A stretch of 64,000 nt of DNA from Truepera sp. (GTDB taxonomy: Bacteria; Deinococcota; Deinococci; Deinococcales; Trueperaceae): assembly GCA_032027045.1 (NCBI GenBank), contig JAVSMU010000001.1, positions 539,356 through 603,355 on the forward strand. The letters are read 5' to 3'. The translations under genes were made by a program, and so were the position numbers. Below the pieces are notes generated by a model that worked only from the letters and a program-made list of their open reading frames with translations, was not told the origin of the DNA and made no database searches. Shown in pieces: positions 47,674-54,340 of this stretch (its first letter is position 1; every line of letters begins with the position of its first letter).

Positions 47674-48047
47674 CCGACCCCTCCTTTCCGGCGCCATGGG
47701 CGCCGAGGGTGCGCGCGTCTCGCTGGACGCGCCCGGCAGCCGCACGCCGGTGGCGGGGCCGTGCCGGCCGCTCTCGCCGCCGCCGTCGTTGGCCGGTGCC
47801 AGCGCGCCGCTGCGTCGACTCGGTGGTGAACACTCATGTCGTACCTAGAAGCTAACCCAATGGCCGCACCTTCGCCCGAGGTCTTGTCACCATCGTGCGG
47901 CCGCTAAGTACACAAGCTGGTTGGTGCTTGAGCCTGGTCATGCCCCGCTGACCGCGCGGTAGCGTGACCGTAATGATCCGCGGCACCCTCCGGCCGGCCT
48001 GGCCGGGGGCCGGCAACTGGCCCCGGGAGCCGCGTGAGGAGGGACGC
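47674..48047. other. 374-bp divergent control region, paaA and E1-alpha
   Basis: Holds the AAGGAGG site of paaA, a minus-strand TAGCTT box at 47849-47854 that could serve paaA with a leader near 170 nt, and for E1-alpha a TAGCGT box at 47960-47965 plus a GAGGAGG site before 48048. A weak inverted repeat CAAGC/GCTTG lies near 47912-47930. Several long open frames cross it, but all are GC-rich shadows; I find no supported gene. Confidence 0.55.
47960..47965 (+). promoter_or_regulatory. -10 box TAGCGT before E1-alpha
   Basis: TANNNT hexamer 7 nt before an in-frame ATG at 47973 and about 83 nt before the ATG with a ribosome site at 48048. Confidence 0.5.
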
Positions 48048-49076
48048 ATGGATACGGTCCGCTTCGTCTCCCCGAAGGGGGAAGTCGTGGGGGAGCTGCC
48101 CATCAGCGACGAGGAGCTGCTGGCAGGTTACGAGGCCGTGGCTCGAGCCCGGCACTTCGACGAACGCGCGGTGGTCCTTCAGCGCCAGGGCCGCCTCGGC
48201 GTGTACGCGCCTTACAGGGGGCAGGAGGCCGCGCAGGTGGGGACGGCCATGGCCCTCCTCCCCAGCGACTGGTTGGTGCCGAGCTACCGCGAGACGGCCG
48301 CCGCCCTCACCCACGGACTGCCGCACAGCCAGCTCCTGCTCTATTGGCGGGCCCATGCCGAGGGCTGGAACTATCCCGAGGGCGTGCGCGTTCTTCCCTT
48401 CTACATCCCGATAGCCACGCAACTGCTGCACGCCGTGGGCCTAGCCATGGCGGGCCGGTTCCAGGAGGAACCGTGGGTAACGATGGTGTACGTGGGAGAC
48501 GGCGGCACCAGCGAGGGCGACTTCCACGAGGCGCTCAACTTCGCGGCCGTGTACAAGGCGCCGGTGGTGTTCGTCGTGCAGAACAACGGTTGGGCGATCA
48601 GCGTCCCGACCGAGAGGCAGATGGGGAACGTGCGCATCGTCGACCGGGCCGTCGGCTACGGCATGCCGGGCGTGCGCGTCGACGGCAACGACCTCGTGGC
48701 TTGCCTCGTCACCGCGCGTGAGGCGGTCGAGCGCGCGCGCCGAGGTGAGGGACCGACGCTCATCGAGGCCGTCACGTACCGCCTGGCTCCGCACACCACG
48801 AGCGACGACCCGCTGCGGTACCGCGACGAGGAGGAGACCGTCAGGCGTGAGGAAGAGGAACCCCTGCGCCGGCTGCGCGCCCTCCTCGCCGCGCGGGCCG
48901 TCTGGGACGACGAGCGCGAGGCCGCCCTCGTGGCGCGGCTCGAAGAGGAGTCGCGGGCCGCCCTTGCCGTGGCGGACGCCACGCCCGAGCCGCCCCCCGA
49001 GAGCATCGTAGAGCAGGTCTTCGCCGACCTGGGCCCCGATCAGAGGCGCGCGTGGGAGGCCCTCCGTGAAGGCTGA
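48048..49076 (+). CDS. 2-oxoacid dehydrogenase E1 component, alpha subunit
   Basis: Thiamine-diphosphate decarboxylase subunit of a pyruvate or branched-chain 2-oxoacid dehydrogenase. 342 aa with the ThDP/Mg motif from [11 protein letters not shown] (150-160) to VVQNNGW, the phospho-loop region [12 protein letters not shown], and [15 protein letters not shown] near the N-terminus. The start at 48048 has GAGGAGG 5 nt upstream; the ATG at 47973 behind a -10 box would add 25 residues without homology. The beta subunit gene overlaps its end by 11 bases. E2 and E3 are not in the window. Confidence 0.92.
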
Positions 49077-50088
49077 GGCGGTCGGCATCCGCCAGGCGGG
49101 CGAGGCGGCGCGCGGCGTCACGATGGTGCAGGCCATCAACGATGCGCTGGGCGTGGCCCTGGCGCGGGACGACCGCACGCTGCTCTTCGGCGAGGACGTC
49201 GGCCACATGGGCGGCGTCTTCCGTGCCAGCGACGGCTTGCAGGAGCGTTTCGGCACGGACCGGGTGTTCGACACGCCCCTCGCGGAGGCGGGCATCATGG
49301 GCCTTGCCATCGGGCTCGCCCTGGGTGGCATGCGGCCGCTGGCCGAGGTGCAGTTCGCGGGCTTCCTCTACCCGGCCCTGGATCAGGTGATGTCGCACTT
49401 GGGTCGGTACCGGCACCGCACCCGCGGGCGCTTCTCGCTGCCCGTGGTCGTGCGCGCGGCCTACGGCGGAGGCGTCCACACGCCCGAGCAGCACGCCGAC
49501 TCGCCCGAGGGAGTGCTCGCGAGCGTGCCCGGAGTGAAGGTCGTCATTCCCTCCTCTCCAGAGCGCGCCAAGGGGCTGCTGCTGGCCGCGATCGACGACC
49601 CGGACCCCGTCTTCTTCCTCGAGGCCATCAAGCTCTACCGTTCGCAGCGCGAGGCCGTGCCGGAGGGTCATTACACGCACCCGCTGGGCCGGGCGCGCGT
49701 GGTGCGCGAGGGGGACGCCGTCACGCTCGTCTGCTACGGCGGCATGGTCGAGGTCTGCTCGAAGGCGGCCGAGGTAGCGGCGCGCGAGGGCGTGGAGCTG
49801 GAGGTCATCGACCTCGAGACGCTGGTGCCGCTGGACGAGGCCACGCTGCTCGAGTCGGTGAAGCGCACGGGCCGCATGGTGGTGGTCTACGAGGCGCCCC
49901 GGAGCGGCGGTTTCGGCGCCGAAGTGGTGGCCCGCATGGCCGAGGAGGCCATCTACTACCTCGAGGCCCCGCTGCTCAGGGTTGCGGGCTGGGACGCCCC
50001 CTACCCGCCCTACACCTCACTCGAGCATCACTACCGCCCCGACGCCAGGCGCGTGCTCGAGGCGGTAAGGAAGGTGCTTTCCACCTAG
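49066..50088 (+). CDS. 2-oxoacid dehydrogenase E1 component, beta subunit
   Basis: 340 aa transketolase-like beta chain. Family stretches: [66 protein letters not shown] and the C-terminal [25 protein letters not shown] start with GGGAGG 6 nt ahead, inside the end of the alpha gene. Together they form an alpha2-beta2 E1. Branched-chain versus pyruvate specificity cannot be decided. Confidence 0.93.
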
Positions 50089-50129
50089 GCCCTCTAGGCC
50101 GCCGCCGCTTGCGCAGCCGGCGCCCCATG

Positions 50130-50157
50130 CCTTAGTATTTAAGGTACTTCTAAGGTA
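50130..50157. promoter_or_regulatory. repeat-rich recA promoter region
   Basis: Contains CCTTAG (50130-50135) and CTAAGG (50150-50155) as an inverted repeat, and two direct copies of TAAGGTA (50140-50146, 50151-50157) exactly 11 bp apart. TAGTAT at 50133-50138 is a possible -10 box. This is where a damage-response regulator would be expected to act. Confidence 0.5.
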
Positions 50158-50195
50158 GTGGCGCCGACAGGCCCACGCGTGAGTGGAGGCAGACG

Positions 50196-51251
50196 ATGGA
50201 TAAGGAACGCGCTAAGGCACTCGAGTCCGCTTTGTTGCAGATCGAGCGGCAGTTTGGTCGTGGGGCGATCATGCGGTTGGGGGCTGAGCCGGTTGGGGTG
50301 TTGGGGTCTGGGGTTATTTCGACTGGGTCTTTGAGTGTGGATGTGGCGTTGGGGGTTGGGGGTTTGCCGCGGGGGCGGGTGGTGGAGGTGTATGGGCCGG
50401 AGTCGGGGGGTAAGACGACTTTGGCTTTGCATGTGGTGGCTGAGGCGCAGGCGGCTGGTGGGGTGGCGGCGTTCGTGGATGCTGAGCATGCGTTGGATCC
50501 GGCTTATGCGGCGGCGTTGGGGGTGGACGTTGATGAGTTGTTGGTGTCGCAGCCGGATACGGGTGAGCAGGCGTTGGAGATCGTGGAGTTGTTGGTGCGG
50601 TCGGGGGCGGTGGATGTGGTGGTGGTGGATAGTGTGGCGGCGTTGACGCCGCGGGCTGAGATCGAGGGTGAGATGGGGGATGCGCATGTGGGGTTGCAGG
50701 CGCGGTTGATGTCGCAGGCGCTCAGGAAGTTGACGGGGGTGTTGTCGAAGTCGCGGACGACGGCGATTTTCATCAATCAGATCCGGGAGAAGATCGGGGT
50801 GATGTATGGGAATCCGGAGACGACGCCGGGGGGTAGGGCGCTTAAGTTTTATGCGAGTGTGCGGCTTGAGGTGAGGCGTAAGGGGGATGTGAAGGTGGGG
50901 GTCGAGCGGGTGGGTAATCGGGTGCGGGTGAAGGTGACGAAGAACAAGGTGGCGCCGCCTTTTCGTGAGGCGGAGGTGGACATCGTGTTCGGTAAGGGGT
51001 TCGATAAGTTGGGGGATCTGGTGGCGGTGGCGAGTGATCTTGGGATCGTGGTTAAGAGCGGGTCGTGGTTCTCGTATGGGGACACGCGGTTGGGTCAGGG
51101 TAAGGAGCGGGCGGTGGAGTTCATCGCTGCTAATCCCGAGCTGATCGGTGAGATCCGCGGCAAGGTCATGGACGCCCTCAAACTCGGAGGCAAGACCGGC
51201 ACCACGGCCTCGGGCGACGACGCCGAAGAGGTGGAGGCGATGGAGGCATAG
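50196..51251 (+). CDS. recA: RecA recombinase, with GT-rich codon usage
   Basis: Strand exchange and SOS co-protease. 351 aa: helix with [22 protein letters not shown], Walker [10 protein letters not shown] (67-75), Walker [11 protein letters not shown], loop L1 [19 protein letters not shown], loop L2 with [17 protein letters not shown], and an acidic C-terminus. GGAGG lies 7 nt before the ATG. The protein is a normal RecA, but from about 50250 to 51130 the coding strand is almost free of C: for example 7 C in 50341-50400 and 5 in 50581-50640. Leu is nearly always TTG, Val GTG, Gly GGG or GGT. Both ends of the gene revert to the C-rich style of the neighbours. Confidence 0.97.
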
Positions 51252-51320: not shown

Positions 51321-51340
51321 GGGGTGACGAGCGTCACCCC
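51321..51340. terminator. 8-bp perfect hairpin after recA
   Basis: GGGGTGAC, loop GAGC, GTCACCCC, 70 nt after the recA stop and 128 nt before korA. No T-run. It may end recA transcripts or sit in the korA leader, since a TACTAT box lies just upstream at 51300-51305. Confidence 0.5.
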
Positions 51341-51467
51341 GATTCTGCGGGAAGTCGGGCCCGAGCCATCCACCCTGCTGACGCAGCAGCCTTGCAAGTG
51401 TCACCCCGCGAGGCGCGACGGTAAGGCCAAGGCGGTTCCGGACAACCCCTGGAGGTGCGATTACCAA

Positions 51468-53294
51468 ATGGGTGTCACCGTACCGCTGAACCGCCGGCAA
51501 GACTCGCTTGCGGCGGACACCATCGTCAACGACTTCTCGCTCGTCGTGGCCACCGCCAACGGCACGGGTAGTCAGACCGCCAACATGACGCTCCTGCGCT
51601 CCTTCTTCAAGATGGGCATCCCCGTCCACGGGAAGAACATCTTCCCCTCGAACATCCAGGGGCTGCCCACCTGGTACCACATCCGCGTGAGCAAGCACGG
51701 CTACGTCGCGCGCCGGCCGTCCGAACTGCTGGTGGCGTTCAACCCGGCAACCCTGCACGAGGACGTCGCCAACCTGCCCGCCGGCGGAGTAGTGATCCAC
51801 AACTCCGACCTGCGGCTGCGGCCCGAGCGCGGCGACCTTACCTACTACCCGGTGCCCGTCAAGGAACTCCTCAAGGGCGTCGAGGTGAAGGGCAAGATCA
51901 AGGAGTACATCGCCAACATGACGTACGTCGGGGTGGTCGCGCACCTCCTCGGCGTGCCACTCGAGGTGATAGAGGAGGCGCTAGGACACCACTTCGGCAA
52001 GCGCCAGAAGCTGGTGGACAGCAACCTCGAGGTCGTGCGCCTGTCCCACTCGTGGGCGGTGGACAACCTACCCAAGAACGATCCCTACCGAGTGGAGCCG
52101 ATGAACGCCACCGAGGGGCTCATCATGATGACGGGCAACGAGGCGGGAGCCCTCGGGAGCGTGTTCGGGGGCGTCAGCGTTGCGGGCTGGTACCCGATAA
52201 CGCCGTCCACGAGCTTCATCGACTCGCTGCGCGAGTATCTCGGCAAGCTCCGCGTCGACGAAGAGGGCAGGGCCAGCTTCAGCGTCATCCAAGCCGAGGA
52301 CGAACTAGCCGCCATCGGCATCGTGATCGGTGCCGGTTGGGCGGGCGCGCGCGCCGTGACCGCCACCAGCGGGCCGGGGCTCTCGCTGATGGCCGAGTTC
52401 CTCGGGTTGGCTTACTACGCCGACGTTCCCGCAGTGGTGTGGGACATCCAACGCGTCGGACCAAGCACCGGCCTCCCGACGCGCACCAGCCAGGGCGACG
52501 TATCCTTCGCCTACTACCTCGGCCACGGCGACACCAAGCAGGTGCTCCTGTTCCCCTCTTCCATAGAGGAGTGCTTCGAGTTCGGCTACAAGGCGCAGGA
52601 CTTGGCCGACAGGCTCCAGACCCCCATCCTCGTGCTCTCCGACCTCGACCTCGGCATGAACAACTGGATGGGCCGGCCCTTCGAGTACCCGGACACGCCG
52701 CTCGATCGCGGCAAGGTCCTGTCGGCGGAAGAGGTCGCGGAGCTTCCCAACTTCGGTCGCTACCGGGACGTGGACGGGGACGGCATCGCCTACCGCACGC
52801 TGCCCGGCAACGAGAACCCTCGGGCCGCCTGGTTCGGGCGCGGTACCGGTCACGACGAGAACGCCAAGTACTCGGAGCGCCCGGAGGACTGGGTGGAGAA
52901 CATGGCGCGCCTGGCCCGTAAGTTCGACACGGCCAGGAACCTGGTGCCCGCCCCGGTCGTCGACGAGCAACCCGGTGCGAAGCTGGGCATCATCGCTTAC
53001 GGCACCACGCGCTACGCCATCGAGGAGGCCCGCGACCTGCTCGTTGCAGAGGGCATCCCCACGGACTTCATGCGCCTACGCGCCCTTCCGATCGGCCCCG
53101 AGGTCGCCGAGTTCGTCGCCGGCCACGATGACGTGGTGGTCATCGAGATGAACCGCGACGGTCAGCTGAAGGCCATCCTCCGCGACGAGCTTCCCGAGCA
53201 CGCCGCCAAGCTCGAGCCCATCGCCTTCCTCGACGGCATGCCGCTCACCGCGGCATGGGTCGTGGAGCGCATCAAAGCCCACTTAGGGGAGTGA
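51468..53294 (+). CDS. korA: 2-oxoacid:ferredoxin oxidoreductase, fused gamma-alpha subunit
   Basis: 608 aa, probably 2-oxoglutarate-specific (KorA/OorA). Residues 20-200 are the gamma domain (VVATANGTGSQTANMTLLRSF, VHGKNIFPSNIQGLPTW); from about 215 the alpha domain begins with GNEAGALGSVFGGVSVAG and YPITPSTS, then EDELAAIGIVIGAGWAGARA and a C-terminal transketolase-like part. Makes acyl-CoA and reduced ferredoxin together with KorB. The ATG at 51468 follows GGAGGTG by 11 nt; the frame is open upstream to 51324, but those residues are not family-like. Pyruvate as substrate is not excluded. Confidence 0.9.
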   Translation: MGVTVPLNRRQDSLAADTIVNDFSLVVATANGTGSQTANMTLLRSFFKMGIPVHGKNIFPSNIQGLPTWYHIRVSKHGYVARRPSELLVAFNPATLHEDVANLPAGGVVIHNSDLRLRPERGDLTYYPVPVKELLKGVEVKGKIKEYIANMTYVGVVAHLLGVPLEVIEEALGHHFGKRQKLVDSNLEVVRLSHSWAVDNLPKNDPYRVEPMNATEGLIMMTGNEAGALGSVFGGVSVAGWYPITPSTSFIDSLREYLGKLRVDEEGRASFSVIQAEDELAAIGIVIGAGWAGARAVTATSGPGLSLMAEFLGLAYYADVPAVVWDIQRVGPSTGLPTRTSQGDVSFAYYLGHGDTKQVLLFPSSIEECFEFGYKAQDLADRLQTPILVLSDLDLGMNNWMGRPFEYPDTPLDRGKVLSAEEVAELPNFGRYRDVDGDGIAYRTLPGNENPRAAWFGRGTGHDENAKYSERPEDWVENMARLARKFDTARNLVPAPVVDEQPGAKLGIIAYGTTRYAIEEARDLLVAEGIPTDFMRLRALPIGPEVAEFVAGHDDVVVIEMNRDGQLKAILRDELPEHAAKLEPIAFLDGMPLTAAWVVERIKAHLGE

Positions 53295-53299
53295 CGAGA

Positions 53300-54340
53300 A
53301 TGGACAGACCCGCACCCGCCGTCAAGCTCAACCGCGTTGGGCTCAGCAAGAACGACTACGTCGGTAGCCCCTCCACGCTATGCAAGGGCTGCGGCCACAA
53401 CTCGGTCGCTGCCCAGCTGGTTCAGATCGCCTACGAGCTCGACCTTCAGCCGCACGAGATCATCAAGCTCTCCGGCATCGGCTGTTCCAGCAAGTCACCC
53501 GCCTACTTCCTCGGGCAGTCCCACGGCTTCAACTCCTTGCACGGCCGCATGCCGTCGCTCGGGACGGGCGCCCTGCAGGCCAACCGGACGGTGAGGGCCA
53601 TCGGCATCAGCGGCGACGGCGACACGGGCTCCATCGGCCTCGGTCAGTTCAAGCACATGATCAGGCGCAACGTGCGCATGGTGTACATCGTGGAGAACAA
53701 CGGCGTGTACGGCCTGACGAAGGGCCAGTTCTCGGCCACCTCGGAAGAGGGCCACAAGCTGAAGTACGCGGGCACCAACCAGTTCCCGGCGCTCGACCTC
53801 TGCATGGAGGCCCTCGCCGCCGGCGCCGGCTTCGTGGCAAGGACGTTCGCCGGTGACGCCAAGCAGGTGCGCGAGGTCATCAAGGCGGGCCTCTCGTATC
53901 GCGGCACGGCGGTGATCGACATCATCAGCCCGTGCGTGGCGTTCAACGACGAACCCGACTCGCGCCACAGCTACGCCTACGGTCGTGAGAACGAACGCGC
54001 GCTGCAGGAGGTCGGCTTCATACCGGCCGAGGAAGAGATCCTCATCGACGACTACGACCCTGGCACGACCCAGGTGGTCGAACTGCACGACGGCTCGCGC
54101 ATGACCCTCCGCAAGCTCGAAGCCGACTTCGATACGTCCGACCGCGTGAAGGGCATGGCCCGTCTTCAGCAGGCCGACGCCCTGGGCGAGCTGCTCACGG
54201 GCATCGTCCACTACGACGACAGCCGTCCGTCGCTGGCCGAGGTGAGCGGCATGTCCGAGACCCCGCTGTCGGGCCTACCAGACGAGAAGCTGCGGCCCTC
54301 GGCCGCCGCCCTGGACTCTCTATTGGCCGGTTACGCCTGA
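53300..54340 (+). CDS. korB: 2-oxoacid:ferredoxin oxidoreductase, beta subunit
   Basis: 346 aa ThDP-binding subunit. STLCKGCGHN (C28, C31) with a later Cys in SGIGCSSK and one in ISPCVAF supplies the [4Fe-4S] ligands; ISGDGDTGSIGLGQFKH to YIVENNGVYGLTKGQ binds ThDP. Starts 5 nt after korA with GGGGAG upstream. The pair needs ferredoxin, which is not encoded here. Its TGA stop overlaps the likely CTG start of the next gene. Confidence 0.93.
   Translation: MDRPAPAVKLNRVGLSKNDYVGSPSTLCKGCGHNSVAAQLVQIAYELDLQPHEIIKLSGIGCSSKSPAYFLGQSHGFNSLHGRMPSLGTGALQANRTVRAIGISGDGDTGSIGLGQFKHMIRRNVRMVYIVENNGVYGLTKGQFSATSEEGHKLKYAGTNQFPALDLCMEALAAGAGFVARTFAGDAKQVREVIKAGLSYRGTAVIDIISPCVAFNDEPDSRHSYAYGRENERALQEVGFIPAEEEILIDDYDPGTTQVVELHDGSRMTLRKLEADFDTSDRVKGMARLQQADALGELLTGIVHYDDSRPSLAEVSGMSETPLSGLPDEKLRPSAAALDSLLAGYA

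Follow-up and report, generated by a model that had tools for sequence, protein, structure and literature searches.

G/T-recoded recA and tuf pairs in apparent gene-conversion tracts of a Trueperaceae genome

We analysed a window of 64,000 nucleotides (the whole stretch of DNA under study), which occupies positions 539356-603355 of a genome of 2,919,400 bp assembled as a single contig (G000:C1). The window holds a recA gene in an uncommon setting: it stands alone between pyruvate dehydrogenase (PDH) and kor genes, whereas the usual arrangement is cinA-recA-rny. We refer to the setting of the window copy as the second locus, and to the other recA of this genome as the cinA-linked copy. In window coordinates, the features are:

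47964..50088, + strand: genes for PDH E1 alpha and E1 beta, 5' of recA, with ordinary codons (E1 beta by NCBIfam; synteny with genomes G007 and G021)
50129..50145, + strand: 17-bp palindrome GCCTTAGTATTTAAGGT, the probable LexA/SOS box of the window recA, shared with the orthologous second-locus recA genes and with a lexA-like gene
50196..51251, + strand: recA, the window copy, 351 aa (G000:C1:589551-590606; NCBIfam TIGR02012, 540 bits)
50223..51204, + strand: putative gene-conversion tract of 982 bp, 100% identical to the cinA-linked recA (self-BLAST, 589578-590559 against 836406-835425, and alignment)
50231..51119, + strand: keto-recoded (G/T) segment of recA, nested in the conversion tract (change-point fit, lnLR 34)
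51120..51251, + strand: C-terminal end of recA, with ordinary C-rich codons (codon listing and alignment)
51324..54340, + strand: korA and korB (2-oxoacid:ferredoxin oxidoreductase alpha and beta), 3' of recA, with ordinary codons (NCBIfam TIGR03710 and PorB_KorB-type)

Both RecA copies match TIGR02012 over their full length at 540 bits, against a cut-off of 325. Codon usage changes abruptly within the gene. When two change points were fitted to the synonymous third positions of recA, G or T made up 92.8% of these positions within 50231..51119 and 41.2% outside (lnLR 34). In the core, Leu is written TTG and the remaining codons are NNG or NNT, with A or C nearly absent from third positions. 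The 900-bp core has a GC skew of +0.52 and a TA skew of +0.26, and no other 300-bp stretch of the window comes near it (SD 0.09). The GT-rich, C-poor core that the first-pass annotation placed at 50250-51130 is thus real and extreme, and its borders were nearly exact. Long antisense ORFs run across recA on the minus strand (50139-50687 and 50504-50776) and are found again in the cinA-linked copy; they are by-products of the C-poor coding strand and not genes.

To see how unusual this segment is, we ranked the 1655 ORFs of at least 450 bp found by an ORF scan of 81% of the genome. The top four by G/T skew of the coding strand are two recA and two tuf genes. Across the 1655 ORFs, G or T occupies a mean fraction of 0.437 (SD 0.057) of synonymous third sites, compared with 0.851 in the window recA, 0.849 in the cinA-linked recA and 0.969 and 0.913 in the tuf genes; the next ORF stands at 0.707. 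Third-position GC skew, with a mean of -0.13 (SD 0.12) over the same ORFs, singles out the same four genes, at 0.90 and 0.83 for tuf, 0.67 and 0.66 for recA and 0.29 for the fifth ORF. Many other genes with such a skew, which the first-pass annotation had named as evidence against its reading, do not appear among the 1655 ORFs; tuf alone shares it. In 80 control recA genes from named GTDB genomes, the median G/T fraction is 0.45 and the highest value 0.62.

Skews of the opposite sign occur at G000:C1:1-4500 and 422500-425200, where the plus strand has a GC skew of +0.3 to +0.4 over minus-strand genes, leaving the coding strand A/C-rich. The genes there (SNF2-type helicase, Rad52-like, ArdC-like) look mobile or defence-related. 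Weak G/T skew is seen in an IS21-like transposase gene at G000:C1:2398594-2400177 (0.29) and in a 100% identical pair of transposase-like ORFs at 132251-133468 and 153859-155076 (0.21). Perhaps these weakly skewed transposase ORFs represent an early stage of the process that affected recA and tuf.

The first-pass annotation saw one recA; the second copy lies 246 kb away at G000:C1:835390-836433 on the minus strand, adjoining cinA and an RNase Y-like gene. Outside the identity tract, the copies differ in their first codons, in the C-terminal tail (from about 51205) and in all flanks. The skewed segment sits inside the tract, the 5' borders being 8 bp apart and the 3' skew border 85 bp inside. 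Judging from this pattern of identity, the two genes are held identical by gene conversion between resident copies. The suggestion that an internal segment was acquired from a foreign recA by gene conversion is therefore borne out as to conversion and fails as to source: the apparent exchange is between two resident recA copies, and RecA groups with its own family. Sharp compositional borders within recA would suit a foreign core brought in by a single horizontal conversion event. However, the nearest relatives of RecA are those of its own genus and family, in a tree in which skewed and unskewed family members group together; the skew borders coincide with the limits of identity to the resident copy or fall just within them; none of the 80 named genomes has a keto-rich recA; and tuf shows the same skew. 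Contradicted by both tree and synteny, a foreign core is extremely improbable.

Relatives in the Trueperaceae carry recA at the same two loci. G007 has both, with the order PDH E1 alpha-E1 beta-recA-korA-korB at one and cinA-recA at the other, and pieces of the same two loci are present in G021 and G001. The korA/korB synteny at the second locus is kept in all three, and G003, G004 and G005 have the second locus in a matching neighbourhood (with a homologue of the gene at 570.8 kb of G000). Truepera radiovictrix (G017) has two copies that are 99.2% identical, the second at another site. Since the same two loci occur in several genera, the duplication is old. Within one genome the copies are 99-100% identical, and between genomes the protein differs by up to about 30%; in G007, for example, the recA cores are 100% identical over 947 bp, while its RecA is about 72% identical to that of G000. 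In a tree of RecA proteins, copies from one genome are identical, and different genomes stand well apart. Paralogues are thus closer within than between genomes, and the synteny of both loci argues against fresh duplication. Near-identity over about 1 kb at old loci is the signature of repeated gene conversion, and the recA pair is, as synteny and identity together indicate, under long-lived concerted evolution by this process. In the openly licensed literature, we found no earlier report of recA in long-lasting concerted evolution and none of such evolution combined with keto recoding.

Many of these relatives are fragmented metagenome-assembled genomes (MAGs), in which copy number was read partly from contig ends. 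Drafts show two 5' and two 3' pieces of recA, cut off where a contig ends or a scaffold has a gap, which is what the collapse of an identical core during assembly would produce. The G027 assembly joins cinA-recA to korA. With recA and tuf collapsed, broken or chimeric in this way, marker-gene counts are unreliable in Trueperaceae MAGs. In the G050 draft, a recA match lies in an open frame of 560 residues that contains an in-frame TGA, reflecting either an assembly error or a disrupted gene.

The two copies appear to differ in their control. The second-locus recA copies examined have ACCTTA-N5-TAAGGT, or a one-base variant of it, about 50-80 bp upstream. The same palindrome as in the window precedes the second-locus recA in G003, G004, G005, G007 and G021, and it is degenerate in Truepera (G017). 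It was absent upstream of the cinA-linked copies examined. The sole perfect 17-bp site in the scanned part of the genome lies 4 bp 5' of a lexA-like gene, whose product has LexA DNA-binding and S24 peptidase domains and matches LexA at 99.2 bits, below the NCBIfam cut-off (110.95) and above both Pfam cut-offs. The window recA site is one of the two next best, and by chance 0 such palindromes are expected in the window. The lexA-like gene and the window recA thus have a putative operator in common. Because the conserved palindrome is shared with lexA and missing at the cinA copy, the window recA is, unlike the cinA copy, probably SOS-inducible. The two copies may have been retained for dosage or for separate control, one basal and one SOS-induced. 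The other of these two sites, a near-perfect palindrome at G000:C1:1914953-1914969, lies upstream of a gene for a TnsA-like transposase endonuclease, where a Tn7-like element is possibly under SOS control.

The other skewed pair, tuf, lies at 877757 and 1074715 of G000, 197 kb apart. Its copies are 99.9% identical over 1221 bp (2 of 1215 bases differ), with G or T at 97% of synonymous sites, a GC skew of 0.54 and a TA skew of 0.35. One copy begins 29 bp after the end of fusA, in which the G/T share is 36% as against 97% in tuf; fusA and the ribosomal-protein genes beside tuf use ordinary C-rich codons.

In the converted stretches of recA and tuf, A/C has given way to G/T on the coding strand at almost all synonymous sites, and also at some where the amino acid changes. 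When G000 is compared with its congener G003, G and T replace each other at 40 of the 42 four-fold sites that differ in tuf and at 34 of 38 in recA. Drift is free within the keto state, and departures from that state are very rare. In the skewed RecA and EF-Tu, Val and Gly are more frequent and the Val/Ile and Arg/Lys ratios are raised, and clear residue replacements that gain keto bases outnumber those that lose them by 9 to 0 in RecA and 11 to 2 in EF-Tu, most being Ile to Val. Simple cytosine deamination of the coding strand does not account for this pattern, as it would give T, yet G rises most and A vanishes too. In recA the few C that remain follow a context rule (ATC, TTC) that tuf does not show, and the rule was dropped.

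It is tempting to look to gene expression, as recA and tuf are important and regulated or highly expressed, and both are skewed on the coding strand. Selection on codons or mRNA could act through translation tuning, C-poor transcripts that escape Rho, or mRNA stability. However, fusA and the ribosomal-protein genes beside tuf stay C-rich, G and T are interchangeable provided that the site stays keto, amino acids shift as well, and single-copy recA in sister families is ordinary. This makes such selection highly improbable, and the earlier proposal that the skew tunes expression is disfavoured with it, given a C-rich fusA only 29 bp from tuf and the changed amino acids.

A mutational asymmetry tied to transcription or replication would explain why the G/T-rich strand is always the coding one, and transcription asymmetry can yield an excess of G+T on coding strands. 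Replication cannot set the strand, as the identical recA copies are oppositely oriented within one replichore and each is G/T-rich on its coding strand. General transcription asymmetry cannot set it either, because fusA, which is adjacent, co-directional and strongly expressed, is untouched; moreover, none of the scanned single-copy ORFs comes near the skew of recA and tuf. We consider mutational asymmetry of this kind very unlikely. A process that is strand-specific, independent of replication, absent from fusA and accompanied by amino-acid shifts fits better at the DNA level than as codon tuning, and what fits better among DNA-level processes is one tied to exchange between copies, together with a lineage factor.

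The need for a lineage factor emerges from other repeated genes. The E. coli tufA/tufB pair, with 13 differences in 1185 bases, has a G/T share of 48-49%, so conversion in general does not force the keto state. We searched recA and tuf motifs in 111 genomes of the phylum, among which comparisons are not phylogenetically independent. The tuf pairs are identical or nearly so in most of the 111, and keto-rich in some clades only: fully in many Trueperaceae, and at four-fold sites only in the Thermus-like genus g20 and in G038. In the g20 motif, four-fold sites are all G and two-fold pyrimidine sites are still C, a G-only recoding. Identical tuf pairs in an Oceanithermus-like genus and in families f2 and f5 are C-rich. 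For recA, 15 of 21 Trueperaceae have a fully keto motif, as opposed to 0 of 35 genomes in families f3 and f4, each of which yielded a single recA. Several of these single-recA genomes have G-rich identical tuf pairs, and G038 combines a skewed identical tuf pair (0.51) with an unskewed single recA (-0.10). In G001, the tuf copies differ in the 5' motif, and that part is C-rich. Short motifs of G001, G009 and G016 hint that keto content may decay once copies have diverged. The skewed form of recA is common to several genera, while Truepera and G007 have recA pairs with no skew. In recent IS copies that are identical to each other, skew is absent or weak, which rejects the idea that any near-identical repeat becomes skewed. 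That every converting pair does so is refuted by the Oceanithermus-like, f2 and f5 tuf pairs and by the recA of Truepera and G007. Conversion alone is thus insufficient, and a lineage-specific factor is needed besides.

Selection could also favour the skew because a G/T-rich coding strand is a preferred pairing sequence of RecA, so that better recombination stops the members of the recA pair, and of the tuf pair, from drifting apart. In its favour, TGG- or TG-rich DNA gives the most stable RecA filaments (PMC3763553, citing Tracy and Kowalczykowski), G/T is exactly the composition of the recoded strand, and recA and tuf are each a conversion pair. The first-pass annotation had offered a form of this idea, in which GT-richness makes the locus a good RecA substrate; the TG preference is real, but the effect cannot be peculiar to recA, as the tuf pair is recoded even more completely. 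In addition, amino-acid replacements in two highly conserved proteins suggest a push and not a benefit, many identical tuf pairs are kept without skew, and selection of such strength over about 300 synonymous sites is hard to credit. Altogether, selection for RecA pairing seems unlikely.

We favour the explanation that the copies are kept uniform by conversion, and that a strand-asymmetric, DNA-level bias from A/C to G/T acts in the recA and tuf tracts; we consider this probable. The bias would act during or after conversion, pushing A/C to G/T on the coding strand, and could be directional if one strand always invades, is resynthesised or is corrected. Candidate sources are G:T-type errors in conversion-associated synthesis and mismatch repair that favours one strand, after which overall GC pressure would convert much of the T into G.

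The closest known parallel comes from polyketide synthase genes, in which skewed, gene-converting repeats called GRINS were described in 2021. As defined in two later papers, GRINS are about 1 kb long, >90% identical to another region and high in positive GC and TA skew; they are apparently recoded with the protein kept, and are linked to gene conversion (PMC10394414, PMC9899208). The recA and tuf tracts resemble them in length, identity, skew and the link to gene conversion. Both GC and TA skew exceed 25% over about 1 kb in the recA core (0.52/0.26) and in tuf (0.54/0.35); over the full recA identity tract the TA skew is 0.22, just below the 25% cut and above the 0.15 cut of PMC9899208. Identity is 100% over 982 bp in recA and 99.9% over 1221 bp in tuf. 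Unlike GRINS copies within the same polyketide synthase, the tracts here are separated by 246 kb in recA and by 197 kb in tuf, within two unlinked housekeeping pairs of a Deinococcota host, with no polyketide synthase context. Here, too, the effect is uniformity rather than diversification, and the conversion enzyme's own gene is hit. The tracts work like GRINS, and we do not file them as members. No origin of GRINS in polyketide synthases was found in the openly licensed literature.

Concerted evolution itself has ample precedent. A survey of 26 prokaryotic genes (tufA/tufB and 25 others) found it for tuf, a textbook case, in 29 orders, Deinococcus-Thermus included (PMC6053082). The recA pair resembles those tuf pairs in being old duplicates at two syntenic loci, near-identical through apparent gene conversion; recA has 0 occurrences in that survey, which does not mention GC skew either. 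In Salmonella, conversion between tuf copies has been observed using strains and selection (PMC5485169). Multiple recA genes are known from Myxococcus xanthus, Bacillus megaterium, Acaryochloris and Deinococcus deserti (PMC2669436, PMC7029660). Like G000, these bacteria carry recA more than once, and their copies differ in how they are regulated or in what they do. In Myxococcus, recA1 and recA2 are functionally divided, and in D. deserti the chromosomal and plasmid RecA are 81% identical, while two plasmid copies encode identical proteins (PMC2669436, PMC7029660). In contrast, both copies of G000 are chromosomal and essentially identical since before several genera split.

With two unrelated housekeeping pairs in one small genome, and unskewed sister pairs for comparison, the origin of the skew becomes testable in compact genes, and tractable relatives exist, as Thermus and Truepera can be grown in culture. 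A bias that arose from conversion itself would be a strand-directional counterpart of GC-biased gene conversion, and would have consequences for analyses of codon usage, for molecular dating and for trees built from tuf and recA, which are in wide use as markers. Their identical copies also explain why MAGs of Trueperaceae so often lack recA and tuf or have them in pieces. Our results suggest that gene copying can push DNA one way in some bacteria. It is plausible, though we advance it tentatively, that in some bacterial lineages conversion has a strong bias from A/C to G/T, specific to one strand, which recodes long-lived pairs almost to NNK only and alters their proteins, with GRINS as one case. 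Here such a bias would act on recA, the gene of the conversion enzyme and a DNA-repair gene, in a relative of the radiation-resistant Truepera.
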